Below are positions 7,646-22,598 of a stretch of 58,966 nt of DNA, in pieces. Location: contig PBMR01000012.1 in the NCBI GenBank assembly GCA_002722735.1, forward strand, positions 1 through 58,966, written 5' to 3'. The notes beneath the pieces are model-generated. The model made no database searches. It saw only the letters and a program-made list of their open reading frames with translations, and was not told where the DNA came from. Position numbers and translations under genes: made by a program. Position 1 is the first letter of the stretch. Every line of letters starts with the position of its first letter. This DNA comes from Methanobacteriota archaeon. Lineage in GTDB: Archaea; Thermoplasmatota; Poseidoniia; Poseidoniales; Thalassarchaeaceae.

Positions 7646-7823
7646 CATCATCCCTGCGTGCGAAAGCCGCAAGTGCCAGCACCGCTAGTGCTGATGGCAG
7701 ACCGAATCCCGGGGTGCCCCCGGGCTCGTGCTCCGGTTCCACTATGGGCCAAGGGCACCCTGCGCACAACGAACTCAGAACTTCATTCCCAACACTCATT
7801 TGCCCCCTCCCCCCGGCGGGGGC
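7646..7823 (+). promoter_or_regulatory. Structured leader between tRNA-Asn and glyA with competing hairpins
   Basis: This 178-base spacer is unusually rich in inverted repeats. CAGCAC (7677-7682) pairs with GTGCTG (7688-7693). CCCGGGG (7708-7714) pairs with CCCCGGG (7718-7724). The overlapping segment 7710-7719 can instead pair over ten bases, including one G-T wobble, with 7753-7762. These last two stems cannot form together. Just before the ATG, the G-run that would serve as ribosome-binding site (7818-7822) can pair with C-tracts at 7810-7814 or 7802-7807. The layout resembles a cis-acting RNA switch or an RNA tied to processing of the upstream tRNA, but the function is inferred. No known riboswitch class is recognised. 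Confidence 0.45.
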
Positions 7824-9104
7824 ATGAGTCACAGACAGACTGCAGACAGCGTCTTGGAGGCGGTCGAAGCATCGGGCAGGCATTACCGCGACGGCCTCCC
7901 GATGATTGCCAGCGAGAACATCCTCAGCCCCATGGTCAGGATGGCGTGCAACTCCGACCTGCACGGCCGATATGCCGAGGGGCTGCCCCGAAAGAGATAC
8001 TACCAGGGATGCGAGGACTTCGACACCATCGAGGAGATTGGTATTGCCAGTGCGAAGAGGGTCTTCAATTGCAGGTTCGCGAACATCCAATCGACTTCGG
8101 GGACGAACTCGAACATGGGTGCCCTGAAGGCCCTGTCCAAGCCGGGCGACTCGATCACCGCGGTCTCAACTGCTGACGGGGGGCATATCTCCCACGCCCG
8201 CATGGGGGCAGTGGGGCTCAGGGGGCTGGACCTCGTGACCTATCCATGGGATGTCAATCGGATGGAGCCGGACATCGATGCCGCTGCTGCGCTGATACGG
8301 GAAACGGAGCCCAGCATAGCCCTCTTCGGCCAATCCGTCTTCCTCTTCCCAACCCCCCTCGGCGAACTGTCCGACGCAGCTCATGAGGTCGGTGCCAAGG
8401 TGATGTTCGATGCCGCACACGTCATCGGACTCGTCGCAGGCGGACAGTTCCAGGATCCCCTGCACGAGGGTGCTGACGTAATGACCGGGAGCAGCCACAA
8501 GACATTCCCAGGGCCCCAAGGGGGGTTCGTACTGTCCGACTCAGAAGACGAGAAGCTCCACAGGAGGCTCAATAGTGGCATATTCCCGGGAGTCTGTTCC
8601 TCCTACCACCTGCATCATGTTGCGGGCAAGGTAGTGGCACTTTCTGAGTTCGAGGCCTTTGGGGACGAATACGCAGCGCACATCGTCTCCAATGCGAAGG
8701 CCCTCGGCGCAGCGCTCGCTGCCGAGGGATTCGATGTCCTAGCCGAAGAGCGAGGATACACGGCCAGCCACCAAGTCGTCACTCGTCATGGCGAGGTCGA
8801 TTCGGGCGCTGGAAGGGACGCAGCTGCCTCCCTCGAACAAGCCGGAATCATCACTAACATGAACATGCTACCTGGTGACACCAAGGCCTTGACTCCAAGC
8901 GGACTCAGGCTCGGGACCCCGGAACTGACTCGGGTCGGCATGGGCACGGATGAGATGCAGGACGTAGCCCGCTTCTTCGCGAGGGCCCTATTGGAGGGGG
9001 AGGACCCCCAGTCGGTCAGGCACGACGTCGCCGATTTCAAGGGTGAGTTCCAGACAGTGGGATACTGCTTCGAGCCCGGTTCTGCTTATCCGGGCCTCGA
9101 CTAG
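7824..9104 (+). CDS. glyA: Serine hydroxymethyltransferase
   Basis: This is a PLP enzyme interconverting serine and glycine with transfer of a one-carbon unit to a folate or pterin carrier. Recognisable motifs are LPMIASENILSP near the N-terminus, RYYQGCEDFDTIEE, NIQSTSGTNSNMGAL, FDAAHVIGL and the PLP-lysine motif TGSSHKTFPGPQGG (K226). Length is 426 residues from the ATG at 7824. That start puts the SENI motif at the usual distance and has a G-rich box directly upstream. An in-frame upstream ATG at 7728 would add a Pro/Gly-rich extension with no family similarity, so it is not used. The gene is preceded by a structured leader and lies near gcvPA/gcvPB, as expected for the glycine cleavage/SHMT pathway. 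Confidence 0.95.
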   Translation: MSHRQTADSVLEAVEASGRHYRDGLPMIASENILSPMVRMACNSDLHGRYAEGLPRKRYYQGCEDFDTIEEIGIASAKRVFNCRFANIQSTSGTNSNMGALKALSKPGDSITAVSTADGGHISHARMGAVGLRGLDLVTYPWDVNRMEPDIDAAAALIRETEPSIALFGQSVFLFPTPLGELSDAAHEVGAKVMFDAAHVIGLVAGGQFQDPLHEGADVMTGSSHKTFPGPQGGFVLSDSEDEKLHRRLNSGIFPGVCSSYHLHHVAGKVVALSEFEAFGDEYAAHIVSNAKALGAALAAEGFDVLAEERGYTASHQVVTRHGEVDSGAGRDAAASLEQAGIITNMNMLPGDTKALTPSGLRLGTPELTRVGMGTDEMQDVARFFARALLEGEDPQSVRHDVADFKGEFQTVGYCFEPGSAYPGLD

Positions 9105-9114
9105 CTATTGCGAA

Positions 9115-9122
9115 ACATATTC
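9115..9122 (+). promoter_or_regulatory. Possible TATA box for the TCAF/M60-like gene
   Basis: The AT-rich ACATATTC is centred about 28 bases before the GTG at 9147. This spacing is right for a leaderless archaeal transcript starting at or near that codon. Confidence 0.3.
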
Positions 9123-9146
9123 AATCGACGTCTCCCATTAGCGATT

Positions 9147-12100
9147 GTGCGCAAGGGCGCCTATTCGGCAATCGTGATGACTCTGCTCCTGCTTCTTCCT
9201 GGGTGCACGGGGATGCTTGGGAGCGATCCCGAGACAGTACCCGAAGTGGTCACGTGCGAGGGGGATCCAAGCCAGCCCGGGTGCTTCGAGGTGGTGATCA
9301 CCGAGGATGACTGCTCCTCGACGGAGGTGTTCACCGGAGAGCACTGCAGGCTGATGACTAGGCCAGAGATGCTCGATTTCGGAGAGAGCTCGATTACACT
9401 GATTGTCGGAAGCCAGATGCAGACACTCACACCAAGCTTCCACGGCGATGCCCCCGAGAGCTGGATAGTCAACCCGACTCTCCCCGCAGGAATCTCCCTG
9501 GACCCAGAATCCGGGATAATTTTCGGCACCCCAACCGCCGAGTCGCAAGGCCTCACTCACACGATCGTAGCGACAAACGCAGCGGGATCAGCCTCGGACA
9601 CCATCCAGATCACGGTTCTCCCCGTCGCACCTCTGTCGATCGCATACCCTGCCGAAGCCATCCACTGCACCGTGGGACAGGAATGCCCTCTGCAGGCCCC
9701 TGAGGTCATGGGGGGTACTCCAGTGGACTGGGTTGTAGAACCGCCCCTGCAAGAAGGGCTGGCTCTTGGGGACTCTGGATCGATCACGGGTGCCCCGACA
9801 TCAATCGGAGACTCGAACCACACCATCACCGCATCCAACGCCGGTGGTAGCGCATCCGACACACTGCGCATCATCACGCTCCACCAGTCCCCCCAGGCCA
9901 TCGACTACGGTTCGCAGTCGTTCACCCTCACATACGGTGAGCAGGCCTCCATCACGCCAGACACTTCGGGAGGACAACCGACGTCTTGGTCGATCGATCC
10001 TGAGCCCCCTGTGGGAATGGAGCTCAAGGAAGGCGGGGCCATCGAGGGCATCCCACTGCTAATCCAGGATTCGAAGGGCTACTCCATCACCGCCACCAAT
10101 ACCGGCGGCTCTGTGTCGACGACCATCACCATCGAAGTCAGAGACATTCCCGTCGAGGGCCTGGCCTACTCTCCCCACGAGTTCGAGCTCTCCCAAGGGG
10201 ATGCCATCGGGGCCATCCTGCCCCAGTGGGGTGGGGGCACACCCGTGTCTTGGGAGATCGATCCCCCTCTGCCCTTGGGTTTCCACTTCGACGCATCCAA
10301 TGGAACTCTCAGCGGAACCGCGCTTCACCTTCAGGGATGGGGGAGTCACACAATTTGGGCCAACAACACGGGGGGCAGTGATTCTACGCATATCAACTTT
10401 AGAATCATCAGCAGACCTCCCGCTGACATCACTTGGCCGGACGACGAGTTTGCGCTTGAGGCCAACCAGAGCGTACTCATCCCCGTCACAAACACAGGGC
10501 CGGAAATAAGCACGTGGGAAGTCAATCCACCTCTGCCCCCCGGACTCTCGCTCTTGTCAAATGGAACCATATGGGGAACGCCGGACGAACGCACTGACTG
10601 GACTCAGTACACCATCTGGGCCAATAACACCGGCGGCTCGGCCGGACAAAGCCTCTGGATGGCCGTCCACGACCTGTCTGCCGACCAGTCCGACCTGCTT
10701 CGCGGCATGGGTAACACGAACTGGGGGGGTTGGCCATCACCAGTACTGCCGATAGGGGAATGGGCCTTCCCCGTGGGTTTCACACAGGAGGGATACGGCT
10801 CCACTATCCCCGTCATTTCGGCCAGTCACGTCGGCCGGGGCAAGATGCTGGGGTACGGCCACGAGAGCTGGGTCGACGGCGCTGGGCCCAAGGAGACGTC
10901 ATTCTCGCTCCGAGCCGTCGAGTGGGTCTGCGGCGAGAACTCCGAGGTAGGGCTGGCCTACGGGGCCGGATATGACGGCTTCGAGGACGAGCTGGAGGAC
11001 GAGGGTCACACCGTCCACCCCTCCGTCACGCCTGACGACCTGTCGGGAATTGATTGCCTGCTCGATGAGTTCTGGAACGGCCACGATGATGCCGACAACC
11101 AGAATCTAATTGACTTCATGCTGTCCGGAGGCGGGCTGATAATGGGAGGCCATGCTTGGTACTGGTCCTACTCCAATAGTGATGTCTCCCATAACTACCC
11201 GGGCAACAAAATCGCCAAGACCACGGGTCTGTTCGTCTCCAATGCATGGGGTTACAACAACGTAGACTTCAGAGTAACTCCGCACGAACTGACTCGCCCG
11301 AAAGCGGCCATCGAGGCGATTCGAGCCGACCGAGTAGACAACCAGCCCCTATCCGCTGAAGACGCGGCGTTCGCCGGCAACTCCCTCTCGATTTGCACGG
11401 GGGTCGTCGCCTTGGACTTCCACGACTTCTGGAGCCCGTTGCGCGAAGTCTTCAACCAGACCGGCTGGACAATCATCGAGTATGGGACCCTGTGGGATGA
11501 TGTTGGCTACAACATGGGGGATGACCCCGTGGCCGATACCTTGCTGCGGATCGAGGCCGCACTGACCCAGGGCCTCCCTGCCAATGAGTTGCCAGCACAC
11601 CCCAGCCATGCGGAGTTCCCCGGCGAGGTCCCGGCTAACGCCACTAGGACTACTCGGGACGTAACCATCGATGGCAATCAGAGCGGGCTTCCCAGCAACT
11701 TCGGCTACTCCAGTGCACGTGCCCACTTGCGTATGACGACCGGCCTGTACGCAGCCCCGGGCGAGGTTGTCACCGTCACACTCCCCCTCGCTATCGTCGA
11801 CACGGGAACCTATGTGCTGGTCGGTGCCCACAGCGACAGCCTATGGGGTAAGAGCCAGTTGCACAGGCACCCGCAGATAGCCCGATGGTGGTACGTCGAC
11901 AGCACTACGATGGAGGTCGGAAACGCTTTCGGCGGGCCAATATACATCGCAATCCAAGCCGGCTCGACGCTAGGTGAATTCGATCTCACCATATCTAATG
12001 CAGTCAGGGCCCCGAGGTACATCCACGGCCAGACCGATGTCTTCCAGTGGCAGCAGCAGTACAGAAACGACCCAGCTCCCTGGGCTGAGATCGGCAGCAG

Positions 12101-13142
12101 CCAGTTCATCCTGACAGTGCCGAGTCACGAGATCAGGGAGTTGGACAACCCGCAGGAACTGATGGACTGGTGGGACGAGGCATTGGGGATGGAGCACGAG
12201 ATTTACGGCTACACCCCATGGCCGAGGGTCGAGAGAGCGGTCTTCGATGCCCAGATCTCAGCAGGCTGGATGCACTCCGGCTACCCCTTCATGGCGCACG
12301 ATCTGAGCGTCGCCGGCGTGGTCAACGTATCATACATGAGCGAGAACGGAGATTGGGGGATGTTCCACGAGCTCGGACACAACCACCAGTGGATGCCATC
12401 CACCCTGCCTGGAACGACTGAGACTGGTTGTAACTTCGCAAGCGTCTATCTAATGGAGGAGCTGGTCGATCCCCCGGAACTGCATCCAGCCGACCCCCCT
12501 CGATCCTATTTCGAGGACGGCTCGAACATCTCTAACTGGTCAGTCTGGACGGCACTGGAGACCTTCCTGATCATCAAGGAGGAATGGGGCTGGGAACCGA
12601 TAACTGAAGCCCTGGCAGTCTACTACACCCTGCCTGCAGCAGAAGTTCCTAACACCGATGAAGAAGAGTTCAATGCGTGGGTCATGCATCTATCGAATAC
12701 CACTGGTTACAATCTCGCCCCTTACCACGCTGCATGGGGCTTCCCGCTCTCTCAGGATACCTTCGACGCTCTGGAAGGTCTTCCAGTCTGGGTCGACGAC
12801 CCCCTGAGGGGCGAATACTACGCTTATCCGGCAATTCTCCGAGACCTCTTCTCTCCAGATCCGTCGGGGGCCAACTCGACCACCATATCATGGGAGACTT
12901 ACGATAACGGAACCAACATCACCCTCACGATTTACTATGGCACCAGCGATGGGGGGAATAGCCCCTCGGCATGGTCTAACAGCTTGGTGGTAGGGGGGGT
13001 CGAACTTGGCAATGAATCCCAGGCCATTACGGGCCTAGAATGCTGCGGGACGACCTACTATGCTCGCATCAAGGCCTCCAATAGCGACCGGTCGTCCTGG
13101 TTCGGCCCGATTTCGTGGTCTACTGACTACCTTCCAGACTGA
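9147..13142 (+). CDS. Secreted lipoprotein-like TCAF/M60-type metallopeptidase with Ig-like repeats
   Basis: This is a very large extracellular protein (about 1,331 residues). The N-terminus has a basic-hydrophobic signal ending in LLLLLPGC, which looks like a lipobox. About five putative Ig (He_PIG-type) repeats follow, each with the pattern WxVxPxLPxGxxLDxxxGxxxGTP and SxxxxTIxATNxxGSxS. A region like the GATase-like part of TRP channel-associated factors comes next (GRGKMLGYGHESW; SGGGLIMGGHAWYWSY; NYPGNKIAKTTGL). Then a peptidase M60 domain carries the zinc motif HELGH at H1074-H1078, followed by NHQW and an acidic segment. A fibronectin-like domain closes the protein. It probably degrades glycoproteins or proteins outside the cell. 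The GTG at 9147 fits a TATA box; TTG 9108 and ATG 9177 are alternatives. The end overlaps the convergent gene by 16 bases. Confidence 0.85.
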   Translation: MRKGAYSAIVMTLLLLLPGCTGMLGSDPETVPEVVTCEGDPSQPGCFEVVITEDDCSSTEVFTGEHCRLMTRPEMLDFGESSITLIVGSQMQTLTPSFHGDAPESWIVNPTLPAGISLDPESGIIFGTPTAESQGLTHTIVATNAAGSASDTIQITVLPVAPLSIAYPAEAIHCTVGQECPLQAPEVMGGTPVDWVVEPPLQEGLALGDSGSITGAPTSIGDSNHTITASNAGGSASDTLRIITLHQSPQAIDYGSQSFTLTYGEQASITPDTSGGQPTSWSIDPEPPVGMELKEGGAIEGIPLLIQDSKGYSITATNTGGSVSTTITIEVRDIPVEGLAYSPHEFELSQGDAIGAILPQWGGGTPVSWEIDPPLPLGFHFDASNGTLSGTALHLQGWGSHTIWANNTGGSDSTHINFRIISRPPADITWPDDEFALEANQSVLIPVTNTGPEISTWEVNPPLPPGLSLLSNGTIWGTPDERTDWTQYTIWANNTGGSAGQSLWMAVHDLSADQSDLLRGMGNTNWGGWPSPVLPIGEWAFPVGFTQEGYGSTIPVISASHVGRGKMLGYGHESWVDGAGPKETSFSLRAVEWVCGENSEVGLAYGAGYDGFEDELEDEGHTVHPSVTPDDLSGIDCLLDEFWNGHDDADNQNLIDFMLSGGGLIMGGHAWYWSYSNSDVSHNYPGNKIAKTTGLFVSNAWGYNNVDFRVTPHELTRPKAAIEAIRADRVDNQPLSAEDAAFAGNSLSICTGVVALDFHDFWSPLREVFNQTGWTIIEYGTLWDDVGYNMGDDPVADTLLRIEAALTQGLPANELPAHPSHAEFPGEVPANATRTTRDVTIDGNQSGLPSNFGYSSARAHLRMTTGLYAAPGEVVTVTLPLAIVDTGTYVLVGAHSDSLWGKSQLHRHPQIARWWYVDSTTMEVGNAFGGPIYIAIQAGSTLGEFDLTISNAVRAPRYIHGQTDVFQWQQQYRNDPAPWAEIGSSQFILTVPSHEIRELDNPQELMDWWDEALGMEHEIYGYTPWPRVERAVFDAQISAGWMHSGYPFMAHDLSVAGVVNVSYMSENGDWGMFHELGHNHQWMPSTLPGTTETGCNFASVYLMEELVDPPELHPADPPRSYFEDGSNISNWSVWTALETFLIIKEEWGWEPITEALAVYYTLPAAEVPNTDEEEFNAWVMHLSNTTGYNLAPYHAAWGFPLSQDTFDALEGLPVWVDDPLRGEYYAYPAILRDLFSPDPSGANSTTISWETYDNGTNITLTIYYGTSDGGNSPSAWSNSLVVGGVELGNESQAITGLECCGTTYYARIKASNSDRSSWFGPISWSTDYLPD

Positions 13143-14203
13143 CTCGTCCTGAGCAGTCTCTCCAAGGAATAACCAGGTATCGCCCTCTCATGGGCCATGG
13201 CTAGGGGTATCCACACCAGAGTATGGGATATCGTTACAGTGAATGCGGGGATCGGGCCGAGCCGCGGCTCTCCTTCCAAGGCCATCGCAACTAGCCCAAG
13301 GACTGCGAAGTGGGAGACGTAAATGGTCAGAGAGAGGCGTCCCGCTGGCTCTAGGAAATCCAACCTGCCCCCCATGGAGGGCTCGCCGCCTCCGGCCTCC
13401 GTTCCTTCCAGCAGCCTCATTGTCAGCATCACCATTGTACCAGATACCACGAGGAATGGCATGCTTGCTGGGAAGAAAGTCAGGACCGCCTCACCAGAGG
13501 TCAGGGCCCAAGCGACCTCCTCGACCACGGCTACCATCACCGTCACGGAAGTGGCTAGGAGGCCAATGGCGATATTGCGCTCCCTGATTCTAGGCTGCTT
13601 CCCGAGATCGTGAATTATCGTTCCCAGCAGAATGTAGAACATCCACGGGGCCGCAGGGTAGGTTCCGTTCCACAGCAGCCTTGCGACCCATTCTGTGGGA
13701 TTTCCGGAATCGACCCTATCGAACCACCCCAGGTCGGGACCCGCTGCATCCCCCAGTAGCAGCGGTGATGCTGCCATGGCCAGCATCAGAGCCGATCTCG
13801 GGACGATGCTCAGGCGGACGAGAAACGGTGCTAGCATCGCAGCGATAGCAAGGAGCGTCAGCACGCCGGGGGTGTGCCATTCGAACCTCCCCCCCCTCTC
13901 GACGTTCAGAAGCAGGTTCACGAGGAGCTGACACAGGGCAAGGACCGCCACCCTAGGCAGCAGCCACCCTACCCAGTCCGCCGGTGAATACCCCTCCTTG
14001 GAGCGGCGATGTGCACTGTGGTACATGCCCCATCCGGAGATGGTCACGAACATGGGGGCGGCCATTCCTCCGAAGGCGGCAGCGACGAAGGCCGCGGGAT
14101 GTCCCACCGTGACTCCTTCGGGGGGTACGATTGCCGCGGTATGGACCTCCACCATGCATAGTATGGCTATGCCTCGCATTCGGTCGATGTGCCCAAGCCT
14201 CAT
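13127..14203 (-). CDS. Multi-pass membrane acyltransferase-like protein (HGSNAT/DUF1624 type)
   Basis: This 358-residue protein has about ten hydrophobic segments. It opens with HIDRMRGIAILCMVEVHTAA, the hallmark start of membrane acyltransferases related to heparan-alpha-glucosaminide N-acetyltransferase and YeiB/DUF418 proteins (usually R-x-x-S-x-D-x-x-R-G). Further family-like points are GGMAAPMFVTISGWGMY in the second span and the late SLTIYVSHFAVLG segment. Such proteins move acyl groups across the membrane onto sugars; here the target might be envelope glycans, which is inference. It converges on the M60-type gene with a 16-base overlap and is followed upstream on the same strand by the CD36-like gene. 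ATG start at 14203. Confidence 0.75.
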   Translation of the reverse strand: MRLGHIDRMRGIAILCMVEVHTAAIVPPEGVTVGHPAAFVAAAFGGMAAPMFVTISGWGMYHSAHRRSKEGYSPADWVGWLLPRVAVLALCQLLVNLLLNVERGGRFEWHTPGVLTLLAIAAMLAPFLVRLSIVPRSALMLAMAASPLLLGDAAGPDLGWFDRVDSGNPTEWVARLLWNGTYPAAPWMFYILLGTIIHDLGKQPRIRERNIAIGLLATSVTVMVAVVEEVAWALTSGEAVLTFFPASMPFLVVSGTMVMLTMRLLEGTEAGGGEPSMGGRLDFLEPAGRLSLTIYVSHFAVLGLVAMALEGEPRLGPIPAFTVTISHTLVWIPLAMAHERAIPGYSLERLLRTSQSGR

Positions 14204-14329: not shown

Positions 14330-17107
14330 TCACTCGGCCTCGTCGGCATTAGGTAGGGCTCCCTCGAGCATCTCCCGGCCCCCATATGCAATCAGTCCAA
14401 TTGCGGTGACGTAGAGCAAGGCAATCACGTAGGTCAGGTAAGATAGGGGGGCTCCCGCGTCACCTCCGAAATTGGTCCAGCCCATTGGGCCCATATTGTC
14501 GGAAACGCTGCCTCTGAATGATGCAGCGGTCTCGTCGTCTAGTTCGGAGAAGGAGCGAATCTCGAACACCGGATGCGTGTCAATCGAACCCTCGCTGAAG
14601 TCAGGGTTCATACTTCCAGGGCCTCGCAGGTCATAGTGGAAGGCAGCGAGGACATCACCATACATCACCACACCAGAGACCTTCTCGACACGCATCGTAA
14701 TGTCCGCGGAAAAATATACTGGAAGGGCACCTGGCAGGACGTCGACGTATGTCCGAGAGCCAATCAGCTTGGCCTGAATCTGATGCTCCGCTGGATCTAG
14801 GGCCAAGTGGTGCTCAACCATTTCTATGCCCTTGAACGTGACATCCCCGACGACAGTGGACTCAGCGATCGCATAGCCCACCGCGTTCAGCCTGAATGGG
14901 GAGCTTGCGTCATTGACCAACGGAGCCGACTTGCCGCCGATGGCACCAGCAACCACTGTGTTCGTGTTGCCTACGTGGTCGGAGAGCAGGCCGTAGGTGG
15001 CTTCCTCGTTGTGAGGGGCTCGCCACGGCAGGTGCTCGGTGAGGCCGTAGGTCTCGTTGGCCTCGCACTCGACATTGTACTCGGCATTGCCGCCGGCATC
15101 CATCTTGAAGTCACACAGGCCGTCCCCATCAGAGTTGATGTAGCCCTGAGAAACACTCTGGCCGATGGTGTCGCCCCCGGTGCTCATGACGTAGACAGAG
15201 AAATCCCCCGTGCTGACAGAATCAGAGCCGAAATACGTCTCATTCGTCTCAAGGCTAACCCAGCCCACGTTCATGTTTGAGATGTCCCCGTAGACGACAT
15301 CTGCGACGATAGGATCCCTCCATCCGTAGAGCCAGTTGCTTACCGGCTGCGTGGTGTATGCAGAGCCTCCGTACTGGAAGCCCAGCAGGGCGCCGATAAC
15401 CTGCTCGAACATGAAGTCCCTAACCCAGCTTCGCAGGGCTGCTGCCTCAGACTCGGAGATATCATAGGCGGCTGCAACGAATGCATCGTCCCATGGCACT
15501 ACTTCCCCCCCCGTCTCAAAATCCGACTGATCCTCGTTCATCGGCATCGTCGTACCTGCGAGTTCGTTGTACATGAAGACGCTAGCGAAGTCCCCGGTGA
15601 GGGCATAGTCTGAGGTGTAGAGGATTTCTCTAGTCTTCTCGATGCTGATGTCGATTGATCCCTCGAATTCAGCACGGTTCAATCCAATCAATAGATATCC
15701 ACCTGCAATTGGCTCCACGCCTCCGAAGGAGGTCTCCCACCATAGTTGAGCGTTAATCGTCCCAGAGCCACCGACCAGAATCATCGGGAACTCGGCGGGA
15801 GTCCCGAGCATGCCTATCCAAGCTCCAGCCCAGTTGGCCAGACTCAGCAACTGGACTAGCCCGATGTTGTATGATATCATAGTCCCGAAGGAATCGGCCT
15901 GTGCACCTAGTAGGAACAGGGCCACCCCATCCAAGGGAATCCCGTTGAAGTCCACAGTGGTCAGCAGCCCCGCTCCCAGGCCGGTTTCGGGATCGATCCC
16001 GAACATCAGGTAATCTAGGACTTCGGGGCTTGCGATGTCGACACCGCTGACCTCGTCTAGGCGCTGCCTGAGGTCGTCGACGGTCGTCAGGTCGGCACCG
16101 CCGCCGTGCTCTAGGAACTCGGCGCCGGCCAAGGCATATACTGCCCAATCAATGTGAGTAAGCGTAGCAGCGTCAGCGCTGCTGTACCCGAGCAGCGCTG
16201 CTCGGGTCGCCGTGGTGGCCTCGCTCGGCTCACCCATCCCGGCAATCAGCATCGGTCCGATGTCACAGGTAAGGGCGATGCAGATGCCGGTCGACGGATC
16301 GGCCGCATCGAACATGATGCTCTGGGCAGCGACCGAGAAGTCTGGGCTCGCATCGCTCGCGCCACTTTGGGCGAGCCAGCCGTCGTAGGCCCCGTCGAGG
16401 ACCGCCGCTGGAGCCATCGAATCAGCAACCTCCGCGGAGACGTTCATCGCAGCCTGAATCTGTGCGGACGCGCTCGAGACCGATTCCGCTATGTCCCCGG
16501 CAGCCCAGATGCTCGGTGCCTTGTTCTGCAGTTCATTCTCCATCATAGCATTGGCGAATCCGGCCTTGGCGAAGGTCTCGCCGTAGGTGATTCCCGTAGC
16601 GAGACCCGCTATCCTCTGGGTGTTCCACAGGATGTTCACGTTCGTGATCTCGGTATCGCCAGAGACAGAGGCCACCTCCGTCCCGTCCTCGTCCGTCCAC
16701 ATGCAGTTCTCGCACCACTCGAAACTGTCGTACTCCGAGTAGGTGACCGTACCGGCTGTCTCGTTGAATTCGAGTACCTCCCTTGTGGTCGTGACCTCGT
16801 AGATGAAGGGCCCCATCTTCTCGAAGGCTTGAGATGGATCATCGGAGGAAAGTGCTGTCTCGTCCGTTATCGAGTAAGCGAAGTAAACCCTTTCACCCGT
16901 TGAAACAGACCAGTTGCTAGGGTACGCATTTCCATCTTCGTCTTCCCAGTAGGCATCGAAGTCCGCCTGCTCGTCCATAGATTCGGTGACCTGTTCCTCC
17001 ACCACCCCCTCGATGAGTCCGTCGACGAACCCCGTCACAGCGAGTCCTAAGTTCACTAGCAGGAGCAGAGCTCCGATTCCTATCGCAATTGTCGGTTTGT
17101 TGTCCAC
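14330..17107 (-). CDS. CD36/LIMP-2-like membrane protein
   Basis: Of about 925 residues, a transmembrane segment lies near the N-terminus (residues about 5-30) and another at the C-terminus (about 885-910), with a large outer domain between. This is the two-ended topology of CD36 scavenger receptors. After the first span comes EEQV, then VYFAYSITDE, DPSQAFEKMGPFIYEVT and GTVTYSEYDSFEW, matching in order the family's start (short acidic/basic stem, 'GPY-Y-' strand, 'F' strand). Before the last span, TYVDVLPGALPVYFSADITM, HPVFEIRSFSELDDETAASF follow the family's late order. The middle is about twice as long as in animal CD36 (roughly 470 residues), so there is an insertion. The GTG at 17107 puts the first span at the N-terminus and has GAGGGTG upstream; in-frame starts at 17215 and 17239 are alternatives. 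The function is unknown; lipid or particle binding is inferred. Confidence 0.7.
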   Translation of the reverse strand: MDNKPTIAIGIGALLLLVNLGLAVTGFVDGLIEGVVEEQVTESMDEQADFDAYWEDEDGNAYPSNWSVSTGERVYFAYSITDETALSSDDPSQAFEKMGPFIYEVTTTREVLEFNETAGTVTYSEYDSFEWCENCMWTDEDGTEVASVSGDTEITNVNILWNTQRIAGLATGITYGETFAKAGFANAMMENELQNKAPSIWAAGDIAESVSSASAQIQAAMNVSAEVADSMAPAAVLDGAYDGWLAQSGASDASPDFSVAAQSIMFDAADPSTGICIALTCDIGPMLIAGMGEPSEATTATRAALLGYSSADAATLTHIDWAVYALAGAEFLEHGGGADLTTVDDLRQRLDEVSGVDIASPEVLDYLMFGIDPETGLGAGLLTTVDFNGIPLDGVALFLLGAQADSFGTMISYNIGLVQLLSLANWAGAWIGMLGTPAEFPMILVGGSGTINAQLWWETSFGGVEPIAGGYLLIGLNRAEFEGSIDISIEKTREILYTSDYALTGDFASVFMYNELAGTTMPMNEDQSDFETGGEVVPWDDAFVAAAYDISESEAAALRSWVRDFMFEQVIGALLGFQYGGSAYTTQPVSNWLYGWRDPIVADVVYGDISNMNVGWVSLETNETYFGSDSVSTGDFSVYVMSTGGDTIGQSVSQGYINSDGDGLCDFKMDAGGNAEYNVECEANETYGLTEHLPWRAPHNEEATYGLLSDHVGNTNTVVAGAIGGKSAPLVNDASSPFRLNAVGYAIAESTVVGDVTFKGIEMVEHHLALDPAEHQIQAKLIGSRTYVDVLPGALPVYFSADITMRVEKVSGVVMYGDVLAAFHYDLRGPGSMNPDFSEGSIDTHPVFEIRSFSELDDETAASFRGSVSDNMGPMGWTNFGGDAGAPLSYLTYVIALLYVTAIGLIAYGGREMLEGALPNADEAE

Positions 17108-17241
17108 GGTTACACCCTCTAAGTGCACGAGTGGGCGCCCGACATTAAGCGTTGCACTCGTGAGAAGACCAATGTGCCCAAGGAGTGAGTCTCGCTGGAT
17201 TTCGATAAGGTTCATGTCACCTTGCACATGGGGGGGCACAC

Positions 17242-17318
17242 GGACCCGTAGCTCAGTTGGTTAGAGCGCTCGGCTCATAACCGAGTGGTCATCGGTTCAA
17301 ATCCGGTCGGGTCCACCA
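17242..17318 (+). tRNA. tRNA-Met (CAT), 3' CCA encoded
   Basis: The acceptor stem GGACCCG (17242-17248) pairs with CGGGTCC (17308-17314), followed by discriminator A and encoded CCA. The anticodon arm CTCGG/CCGAG holds loop CTCATAA with CAT. The T arm ATCGG/CCGGT encloses TTCAAAT. The G-C run typical of initiator anticodon stems is absent, so this is probably the elongator form, although tRNA-Ile2 (modified CAT) cannot be excluded by eye. Confidence 0.93.
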
Positions 17319-20366: not shown

Positions 20367-22598
20367 TCATGCACCCCCAGAGATTCCGAGCCCCGGTATC
20401 CTCGTTTTGTTCTCGAGGTACCTGAGCAGTAGTGCTAGCGTCCATGTGACGATGAAGTAGGAGATCATGACCATCCCCCATGTCCAGAATATCTGGAATG
20501 TCACGGCGATAATCAGCTTGCCCTGTCTAGTGAGTTCCGCATATCCTATCACCATGGCAAGAGACGAGTTCAGGACGAGATTCACCATCTCATTGCCCAG
20601 TGGGGGTATGCAGATTCGAATTGCCTGCGGCATGATCACGAGCCTCATGGTCTGCATGTAGTTCAGTCCGATGCTCCTGCCCGCCTCCATCTGCCCAGAG
20701 GGAATGGCCGCTATCGCTCCTCGAATGGTCTCGCACTGGTAGGCTCCAGAATTCAGCCCCAGTGCGAAGATCGCGCTGATATAGGCTCTGTCTGCGAGGA
20801 TCCCATCCCTCAAGAAGTTGGAGATGAGGTTGTCCGAGCCCCCAATCATCTCGAGCCCCGGCCCCTGAATCATCTTGCCCAGTTGCAGCCCGAAGTGGAT
20901 GAACATGAACTGGACTATCAGGGGCGTGTTGCGGAAGAAGTCGGTGTACAGCGTCGCGATCACGTTCAGGGGTCTCGCACCCCAAGGATTCAGTGAGACT
21001 GTCCAGCCAAGATTCGACAGTCGCACTTCCTTGATGGAGAAGTCTCCGTTGCAGGAAATGAATAGCAGCCCCAAAAGCGTCAATGCCGCCCCAATCAGAA
21101 TCGATGCAAAGGCACCGGGGTCGCCAACGGGCACGTAGATGTGCTCCCAACCATCCAGATTGAGGGCTCTGACGTCATCGATAATGGCGTAGAATGACCA
21201 GACCCCAACTGACAACATTACCAGTCCGATGAATTTGACCGCAGGGGTGTTGATTGGCCTCGTGGCAGAAATCTCAGTTGACTTGGCACGCAATGAATCC
21301 ACATTCGCACCCAGATTTCCGAATGAAAGTACATTGGCCAATGTCGCAAGTGGAATGACCAACTGGTACCGATTGATCTGTGCGACATCTCTCAGGGTCG
21401 AGGGCGATGTCTTCAACATGGAGAGAATCACTCCAACGGAGAACCCCAAGGCTATCCCGAACAGTACGATCTTGATGGTGGCGAATAGGCCGTCGATCAG
21501 CATCCCCTTGGAGTAGTCGACGAACTGCCCAAAGTCGCCGAAGTCGATTACTTGGAATCCAACCGCCTCTTCCTCGCCCGAGTTATCAGTCCACAATATC
21601 GAGCCCCCCTGAGCGATGGCAACCCCATTGAAACCGTCAATCATCGCCACGCCGTTGAAATTGATATCGTTCGAGATCGGGATCATCTGCTTGCTTACGA
21701 TATTCCCACCGTCCTTGCTCAGAGACAGATACCCATTGGGCCCCGTGAAGATGATCTTGTAGGTCGATAGCACCTCCATGGAGTTCAACTCCACTCCCAG
21801 AGAGGTGCTTCTACCGTGCGATTCGATCTCGACCAGGCTCCAGACGAAGCCCACTGCTACGCTACCCTCCCTGGAGGACCTCAGGATGTGCCCCTCGTCT
21901 GTAATGGCATAGGCGCGAATGGTGCTGAAGTAGTCGATTGATACTATGCTATCCGAACTCACCTGGCTTGGCGCATCCCTGTAGTCCCACACCACGCCCC
22001 CGTCCGTGGATGCGAGGATCGTCCCGCCATCCCCTGAGATGAGGCCATTGTTTGAATCTAGGAAGGAGACACTGAGCAAATCGTCCCCCACTCCGATGGA
22101 ACGGTCATGCCATGCGTCGCCATCGTACTGCCAGATCGCACCAGCAGGACCTACTGCCACCAGCGACACGTTGCTAGTCAGAGCGATGCCCGAGACTCCC
22201 GTCTTCGTTGGGATGGAGACGTCTTCCCATACCCCTCCGCCCTCATTCATCAGCAGGACGGTCCCGTCGCCCCCAGCCACTGCAAGGGCTCCGAAGGCAG
22301 AGTCGGAGGTGATCAGGTCCGAGCTGGTCGGTGAGTCGAAGGACTGCCAGGTCAGCCCACCATCGCCGCTGCTCAGTATCGTCCCGCTTGAGCCGAAGGC
22401 CCAGAACGCCTCGGCGTGAACCTCGGCGGTTAGGAGGTCTGACTCCGTTCCGCTTTCGATTTCGTCCCACCCGCTAATGTACGACTGTGCAGTCGCTCCT
22501 CCAGTAGCTAGAATGAGTGCGAGAAGGGTCAGGGATACGCCCCATTCGATGCGCTTGGGGACAGAACGATGCCGTTTCAGAGAGGTTCCTGTCAACAT
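20367..22598 (-). CDS. Amino-acid ABC transporter permease fused to an extracellular Ycf48/BNR-like beta-propeller
   Basis: This 743-residue protein has two clear parts. The N-terminus has a signal-type segment (20-38). Repeats of about 45 residues follow, with BNR motifs such as GTILSSGDGGLTWQSF (72-87) and GTILASTDGGVVWDYR (192-207), plus weaker copies near 285-300 and 330-340; together they resemble a Ycf48-type propeller. From about 365 it becomes a HisM/GlnP-type permease: GLFATIKIVLFGIALGFSVG, YTDFFRNTPLIVQFMFIHFG (551-570), and an EAA loop EAGRSIGLNYMQTMRLVIMP (639-657). An insert of about 150 residues with two extra spans splits the usual first-span and FFRNTP regions. The propeller could act as a tethered receptor or sensor, since no binding protein is adjacent (inference). 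The ATPase gene follows directly. Confidence 0.88.
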   Translation of the reverse strand: MLTGTSLKRHRSVPKRIEWGVSLTLLALILATGGATAQSYISGWDEIESGTESDLLTAEVHAEAFWAFGSSGTILSSGDGGLTWQSFDSPTSSDLITSDSAFGALAVAGGDGTVLLMNEGGGVWEDVSIPTKTGVSGIALTSNVSLVAVGPAGAIWQYDGDAWHDRSIGVGDDLLSVSFLDSNNGLISGDGGTILASTDGGVVWDYRDAPSQVSSDSIVSIDYFSTIRAYAITDEGHILRSSREGSVAVGFVWSLVEIESHGRSTSLGVELNSMEVLSTYKIIFTGPNGYLSLSKDGGNIVSKQMIPISNDINFNGVAMIDGFNGVAIAQGGSILWTDNSGEEEAVGFQVIDFGDFGQFVDYSKGMLIDGLFATIKIVLFGIALGFSVGVILSMLKTSPSTLRDVAQINRYQLVIPLATLANVLSFGNLGANVDSLRAKSTEISATRPINTPAVKFIGLVMLSVGVWSFYAIIDDVRALNLDGWEHIYVPVGDPGAFASILIGAALTLLGLLFISCNGDFSIKEVRLSNLGWTVSLNPWGARPLNVIATLYTDFFRNTPLIVQFMFIHFGLQLGKMIQGPGLEMIGGSDNLISNFLRDGILADRAYISAIFALGLNSGAYQCETIRGAIAAIPSGQMEAGRSIGLNYMQTMRLVIMPQAIRICIPPLGNEMVNLVLNSSLAMVIGYAELTRQGKLIIAVTFQIFWTWGMVMISYFIVTWTLALLLRYLENKTRIPGLGISGGA

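Follow-up and report, generated by a model that had tools for sequence, protein, structure and literature searches.

The window analyzed here (the whole stretch of 58,966 nucleotides, which is contig C12 in a genome of 1.4 Mb listed as 80 percent complete) encodes on its minus strand, at 14330..17107, a protein of the CD36/LIMP-2 superfamily that most likely works as a membrane-anchored lipid conduit. We give this reading a probability of about 0.6; the lipid ligand, the tunnel and the direction of transfer are the parts of it that we infer. That the open reading frame is CD36/LIMP-2-like, as a sequence-only reading of the DNA had proposed, is confirmed, and its classification as a divergent archaeal member of the superfamily is supported by sequence homology together with the predicted fold.

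The gene and its membrane anchors

The gene is an open frame of 925 codons plus a stop codon and has a GTG start. A further in-frame GTG lies upstream of 17107, at position 17239. Because the frame of one relative (L007) begins at the earliest two residues ahead of the residue of 17107 (MDNQQ...) and cannot begin further upstream, GTG 17107 is the likely start codon. All five peptides quoted in the sequence-only reading are found in this translation. The nearest named relative, from Candidatus Thalassarchaeaceae (order Candidatus Poseidoniales), is 89 percent identical over the whole protein, and the window probably comes from the same group. Directly upstream of the gene, on the opposite strand, is a tRNA-Met (cat) gene (17242-17318, plus strand).

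The membrane topology with one anchor at each end, which had been claimed from the translation, holds: there is a hydrophobic span at either end of the protein (Kyte-Doolittle maxima 2.35 and 2.0), and in 40 of 43 relatives the maxima at both ends are at least 1.6. The N-terminal membrane helix (residues 4-24; 17036..17098, minus strand) is placed by hydropathy and is also a helix in the predicted model, with low confidence there; the C-terminal one (residues 886-916; 14360..14452, minus strand) is placed by model and hydropathy.

Sequence homology to CD36 and LIMP-2

Residues 78-168 (16604..16876, minus strand) match positions 57-134 of the 463-position Pfam CD36 profile (PF01130) at 31.1 bits, above the gathering cut-off of 26.5 bits; the profile comparison proposed as a check of the family assignment therefore came out in its favor. 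A DNA-level search with the same profile found the same place at 24.5 bits, slightly below the cut-off. When this search was applied to 14 control genomes at E up to 10, two of them (B. subtilis and T. maritima) gave matches, none over the cut-off. Every one of the 43 relatives in the alignment matches CD36 with an E value no higher than 0.01 (lowest 1.6e-20), and scores reach 73.5 bits. Most of these matches involve only the N-terminal part of the profile, to about position 134. In the genome search, later parts were over the cut-off in three cases (positions 147-253 in G027, 160-253 in G126 and 159-257 in G095), and G093 matches positions 371-443 at E 0.009, which is below it.

Single sequences do less well against the PDB than the family does. 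A phmmer search with the window protein alone, run to E 10, did not find CD36, and a stronger relative alone reached the CD36 family at E 0.38 only. The family profile returned nine sequences at E up to 10, the best eight of which are CD36 or LIMP-2 (2.1e-5 to 9.1e-5), and with a second family alignment as profile the best eight of 11 are CD36/LIMP-2, from 7.1e-7. Three segments are colinear with LIMP-2 (profile 34-128 with LIMP-2 6-97, 554-656 with 127-218, and 787-817 with 379-409), and only the first is significant by itself. The sequence-only reading had also likened a late block before the last membrane span to CD36/LIMP-2. Here the predicted fold and the colinear order agree with it, whereas the Pfam match in the window protein does not extend to this block and the segment 787-817 is not significant alone.

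Predicted fold and domain anatomy

An AlphaFold2 model of the window protein, built with 43 sequences, has a mean pLDDT of 78.9 and a pTM of 0.71; for a 725-residue relative from genus g20 (L082, 29 sequences) the values are 80.6 and 0.73. In Foldseek searches with the window model, ranks 1-13 are all CD36/LIMP-2 (E 7.8e-5 to 5.6e-3, target TM 0.36-0.40), ranks 14-17 are mycobacterial LmcA (E 8.4e-3 to 3.4e-2), and the following match has E 1.1. With the L082 model, LIMP-2/CD36 again fills ranks 1-13 (best E 3.1e-11 with TM 0.65; target TM up to 0.66) and LmcA ranks 14-17. Identity to CD36/LIMP-2 in the structural alignments of the two models is 9 to 13 percent. The best solved matches are thus the ones that had been anticipated, and the models predict for the outer part an asymmetric CD36-type beta-barrel ectodomain.

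In the model the first beta block comprises residues 53-157 (16637..16951, minus strand), with an invariant GP pair at 99-100, and the second residues 584-855 (14543..15358, minus strand). The motif WLYGWRDP in the second block (residues 592-599; 15311..15334, minus strand) aligns with LLWGYRDP of CD36. Between the blocks, model and profile alignment place a large, mostly helical domain (residues 161-579; 15371..16627, minus strand) that replaces the CD36 apex bundle. It is inserted just before the helix leading to the LLWGYRDP motif: archaeal profile positions 118-543 face CD36 114-141, and 128-554 face LIMP-2 97-127, so that about 400 residues stand against about 30 in CD36/LIMP-2. The protein had been described as about twice as long as its animal counterparts, with an insertion to account for it. 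At 925 residues, compared with 472 for the CD36 chain 5lgd, the first statement is accurate; the second needs to be made more precise, since the additional residues form a single large helical domain where CD36 has its apex. In the model the apical helices that had been proposed as a check are present, as a stretch far exceeding a three-helix bundle. In L082 the helical stretch (residues 146-412) is about a third shorter than in the window protein.

With CD36, SR-B1 and LIMP-2 the archaeal protein has in common two terminal membrane spans, GP(F/Y)xY and LxGxxD motifs, the predicted beta-barrel fold and the colinear order of segments; it differs in being prokaryotic, in its far larger apex, and in lacking Lys164 and the disulfide pattern. 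Lys164 of CD36, which we take to have a fatty-acid role, has no lysine at the aligned position in the archaeal profile consensus. For the cysteines, the comparison was made with the CD36 positions that presumably form the three ectodomain disulfides. In the alignment of 43 relatives there are no conserved cysteine columns matching the three CD36-type disulfides of metazoan class B receptors, and columns aligned to window residues 690-850 have cysteine in at most 11 of 43. The conserved cysteines of the archaeal family are at residues 132/135, 276/281 and 665/681, in 23 to 35 of the 43. A 2023 study reports three disulfide pairs in the ectodomain, treats the CD36 ectodomain apex as its evolutionarily labile part, and infers an SR-B protein for the last eukaryotic ancestor; neither 'archaea' nor 'prokaryot' occurs in its main text (PMC10715195).

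An apex of about 400 residues raises the alternative of a protein that acts chiefly at the surface as an adhesin or receptor for particles, its helical apex binding particles or glycans and its barrel serving only as a scaffold. The same-strand run that the gene shares with alpha-mannosidase, mannitol dehydrogenase and sugar kinase genes in genera g21 and g17 could be read in the same way. However, the helical domain is conserved nearly as well as the beta blocks (mean majority share over 43 relatives 0.46-0.53 versus 0.48-0.58), as an adhesive tip would rarely be, and the g20 proteins manage with a shorter one. We consider this alternative improbable and keep the conduit as the preferred reading.

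Distribution and family tree

A match to the window protein is found in 167 of 193 Poseidoniales genomes and in 18 of 21 genera, those without one being g8, g16 and g18. In a sample of the phylum, 104 of 389 genomes match the CD36 profile, 89 of them over the cut-off; among the matches listed, all but one are from Poseidoniales, and that one scores 13.8 bits, below the cut-off. At E 0.01 the profile matches a single one of the 14 control genomes (T. maritima, below the cut-off) and none over it. Coverage beyond Thermoplasmatota consisted of these controls and one contig scan that reached close relatives only.

Is the resemblance to CD36 a product of chance, convergence or eukaryotic contamination? 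The failure of phmmer with the window protein and the weak result with the stronger relative would be in keeping with this, as would the matches below the cut-off in T. maritima and in one genome outside the order. Yet the profile and fold searches arrive at the same family, and on this agreement, with all 43 relatives matching CD36, we reject a chance match. The count over the cut-off is 89 of 389 in the phylum versus 0 of 14 in the controls, with the one listed outsider below it. A eukaryotic contaminant is rejected because the gene occurs in 167 of the 193 genomes and its neighborhoods are conserved. Taken as a whole, this explanation is hardly credible, and common descent with CD36/LIMP-2 is the reading that we retain.

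Other sources were considered as well. An apparent bacterial copy (L003, PBPC01000098.1, labeled Gemmatimonadetes) lies on a misbinned contig that is apparently Poseidoniales DNA, because it has the gene order of the window: a protein like that encoded at window 7728-9104, an M60 peptidase, an acyltransferase and the CD36-like protein. A viral origin was set aside, the L082 model finding nothing at E 0.001 or better in a viral fold library, and in plasmids there was no tblastn match at E 0.01.

In the family tree, which has 50 rows (two genes appear twice), is rooted only at the midpoint and is silent on eukaryotes, two label changes suffice for the families f1 and f2. Genus g4, of f1, has an f1-type copy and a second one, transcribed divergently, that clusters with sequences of f2; this second copy is compatible with an ancient duplication or with transfer from one family to the other. 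In one locus (L076 3547-6236, minus strand) the CD36-like gene is in two overlapping frames of 578 and 331 residues; the genome is listed as one contig.

Probable relationship to mycobacterial LmcA/PgfA

The sequence-only reading had described the family as mainly eukaryotic. The fold is not restricted to eukaryotes, however: according to reports of 2022, LmcA/PgfA of mycobacteria has the CD36 fold as well (PMC8972800, PMC9678360). The LmcA/PgfA family is reported to be exclusive to actinobacteria (PMC9678360), and the apex of LmcA to be a single helix with no three-helix bundle (PMC8972800).

Five of the 43 relatives match the corresponding Pfam family (PF11271, PorA/DUF3068) with E values no higher than 0.01; the lowest is 8.9e-5, and all five are under the cut-off. 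In the four of these five that were seen singly the match lies near the C terminus, with a best score of 22.4 bits versus a cut-off of 29.5. In a search of 115 genomes, PF11271 matched 20 with E values up to 1, in no case reaching the gathering score; the six best matches are all on open frames that also match PF01130. Three of the 14 controls match PF11271 (S. elongatus, D. chartae and C. glutamicum), one of them over the cut-off. L082 matches the NCBIfam PgfA model at E 0.0086, far under its cut-off. Since these matches combine with the LmcA ranks in Foldseek, a common superfamily with LmcA/PgfA is likely, on predicted folds and weak sequence evidence. The archaeal family nevertheless differs from LmcA/PgfA (MSMEG_0317; 'Porin PorA') in that LmcA has one helix at its apex and the archaeal proteins are below the PF11271 cut-off.

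Gene neighborhoods

In the window the gene for a membrane acyltransferase (Acyl_transf_3; 13127..14203, minus strand) lies downstream, 126 bases from the CD36-like stop codon. It is a conserved neighbor, and the association is one of position. A further match of this protein is to the catalytic model of HGSNAT (E 1.1e-12). Beyond it, on the plus strand, 9108-13142 encodes a large M60-like peptidase (E 9.2e-55) that carries Ig-like He_PIG repeats and whose cluster occurs in 12 of the 41 loci compared. The neighbors also include an amino acid type ABC transporter; at 20367-22598 (minus strand) a BPD_transp_1 ABC permease domain stands behind a YCF48-like beta-propeller match (PSII_BNR), an unusual-looking fusion.

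There are 21 f1 loci of the same type as the window, L084-L103 plus the window itself. Seventeen of them contain the acyltransferase, and in 20 a 316-residue protein with no known Pfam family is encoded upstream, sometimes with intervening genes. In nine of the 21, the CD36-like gene lies between genes for a TctA-family protein and for a PLD/lamin-tail protein; the domain names of neighbor clusters come from one scanned member each. L086 2177-5221 (minus strand), beside the CD36-like gene, encodes such a protein with phospholipase-D-like and lamin-tail domains. In genera g21 and g17 (L064 1-10001, L065, L066) the CD36-like gene is inside a same-strand run, which in L064 contains genes for a GH38 alpha-mannosidase, a mannitol dehydrogenase, an FGGY kinase and an epimerase.

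Genus g20 has a different arrangement. In four of four genomes the CD36-like gene is followed by a LolD-like ATPase gene and then by a LolC/E-like permease gene; in two of them (G146 and G172) the available locus ends inside the permease. In the two loci read fully the trio is on one strand with gaps of at most 16 bases, counted by first possible starts, and in L083 the ATPase frame opens within the 3' end of the CD36-like gene. Among NCBIfam models, LolD scores best for the ATPase; for the permease lolCE does so in L082 and ADOP, with lolCE second, in L083, all below cut-off. Against the PDB, the best match of the L082 permease is LolC (E 7e-8), and that of the ATPase is OpuCA, LolD chains coming lower down. 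The arrangement thus resembles LolCDE/MacB-type ABC systems and their lipoprotein carriers in that genes for a LolD-like ATPase and a LolC/E-like permease adjoin the CD36-like gene. It differs from them in that the NCBIfam LolD and LolCE cut-offs are not reached and the CD36-like protein has a membrane anchor at either end. LolA is absent from the best 50 of 135 Foldseek rows for L082, and LprG appears at E 2.6 and weaker.

A related alternative is that the protein serves envelope lipid or lipoprotein export and not uptake, lipids being handed outward from an ABC or RND exporter. The model for this is PgfA, which is reported to interact with MmpL3 and to bind a trehalose monomycolate analogue (PMC9678360). 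Besides the adjacent trio in g20, the PF11271 matches among the relatives and their coincidence with PF01130 frames would agree with export, as would the MMPL and FtsX proteins encoded in the genome of the window. However, the MMPL and FtsX genes are on other contigs than the CD36-like gene, and no genome reached the PF11271 cut-off. The window gene has an acyltransferase, an M60 peptidase and an amino acid type ABC transporter for neighbors, and the permease match is confined to g20 among the loci compared, many of which have short flanks. The ABC transporter of the window is not supported as a partner of the CD36-like protein, the matches to the g20 ATPase in eight f1 loci being just 31 to 34 percent identical. 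We regard a role restricted to export as rather unlikely, if less so than the adhesin, and return to a conduit for which the direction is left wider.

Proposed function and significance

The support for a lipid conduit is anatomical, to which is added the adjoining LolCDE-like ABC transporter in all four g20 genomes. The protein has a membrane anchor at each end and, in the models, a CD36-type barrel topped by the helical domain of some 400 residues. The helical apex would capture a hydrophobic ligand, the barrel would carry it toward the outer face of the membrane or away from it, and transporters or enzymes would take over there; for the transporters we infer a partnership with ABC or RND systems. 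Such a role would be in line with that of CD36 as a fatty-acid transporter (PMC8972800) with the crystallization of LIMP-2 with cholesterol and phosphatidylcholine (PMC5712522), and with the trehalose monomycolate analogue reported to be bound by PgfA (PMC9678360). Points against it are that Lys164 and the CD36 disulfides are not kept and that the target TM of the window model is low (0.40).

Fatty acid degradation genes are reported in all Poseidoniales genera (PMC6461757), with several families lacking some of the steps (PMC6336850). A link between this pathway and the CD36-like gene by phylogenetic profile was considered and dropped, acyl-CoA dehydrogenase matches being found in all 193 Poseidoniales genomes regardless of the CD36-like gene. 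Presence of the gene does not track fatty acid breakdown, because the eight listed genomes of g8 lack it and all eight have an acyl-CoA dehydrogenase match.

Among the open-licence papers listed we found no description of an archaeal CD36 protein. Public databases may already label these proteins, many of which pass the Pfam cut-off, and LmcA/PgfA, a bacterial structural relative known since 2022, limits how new the family is. The predicted folds suggest that the CD36/LIMP-2 lipid-handling family extends beyond eukaryotes. A bolder proposal, which we advance tentatively as a minority view, is that the CD36 fold is older than eukaryotes and that the Poseidoniales branch joins LmcA/PgfA to CD36/LIMP-2, all of them being transporter-coupled lipid conduits; scavenger receptors would then descend from a prokaryotic envelope-lipid protein.

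With this finding, one of the most abundant archaeal groups of the surface ocean has a CD36-family protein. The archaeal family is a possible middle ground, at the sequence level, between the isolated bacterial LmcA/PgfA and the eukaryotic receptors, and it opens the question of how scavenger receptors arose to testing. In addition, it provides a candidate for the movement of lipids across or along the envelope of these uncultured, reportedly fatty-acid-degrading archaea.
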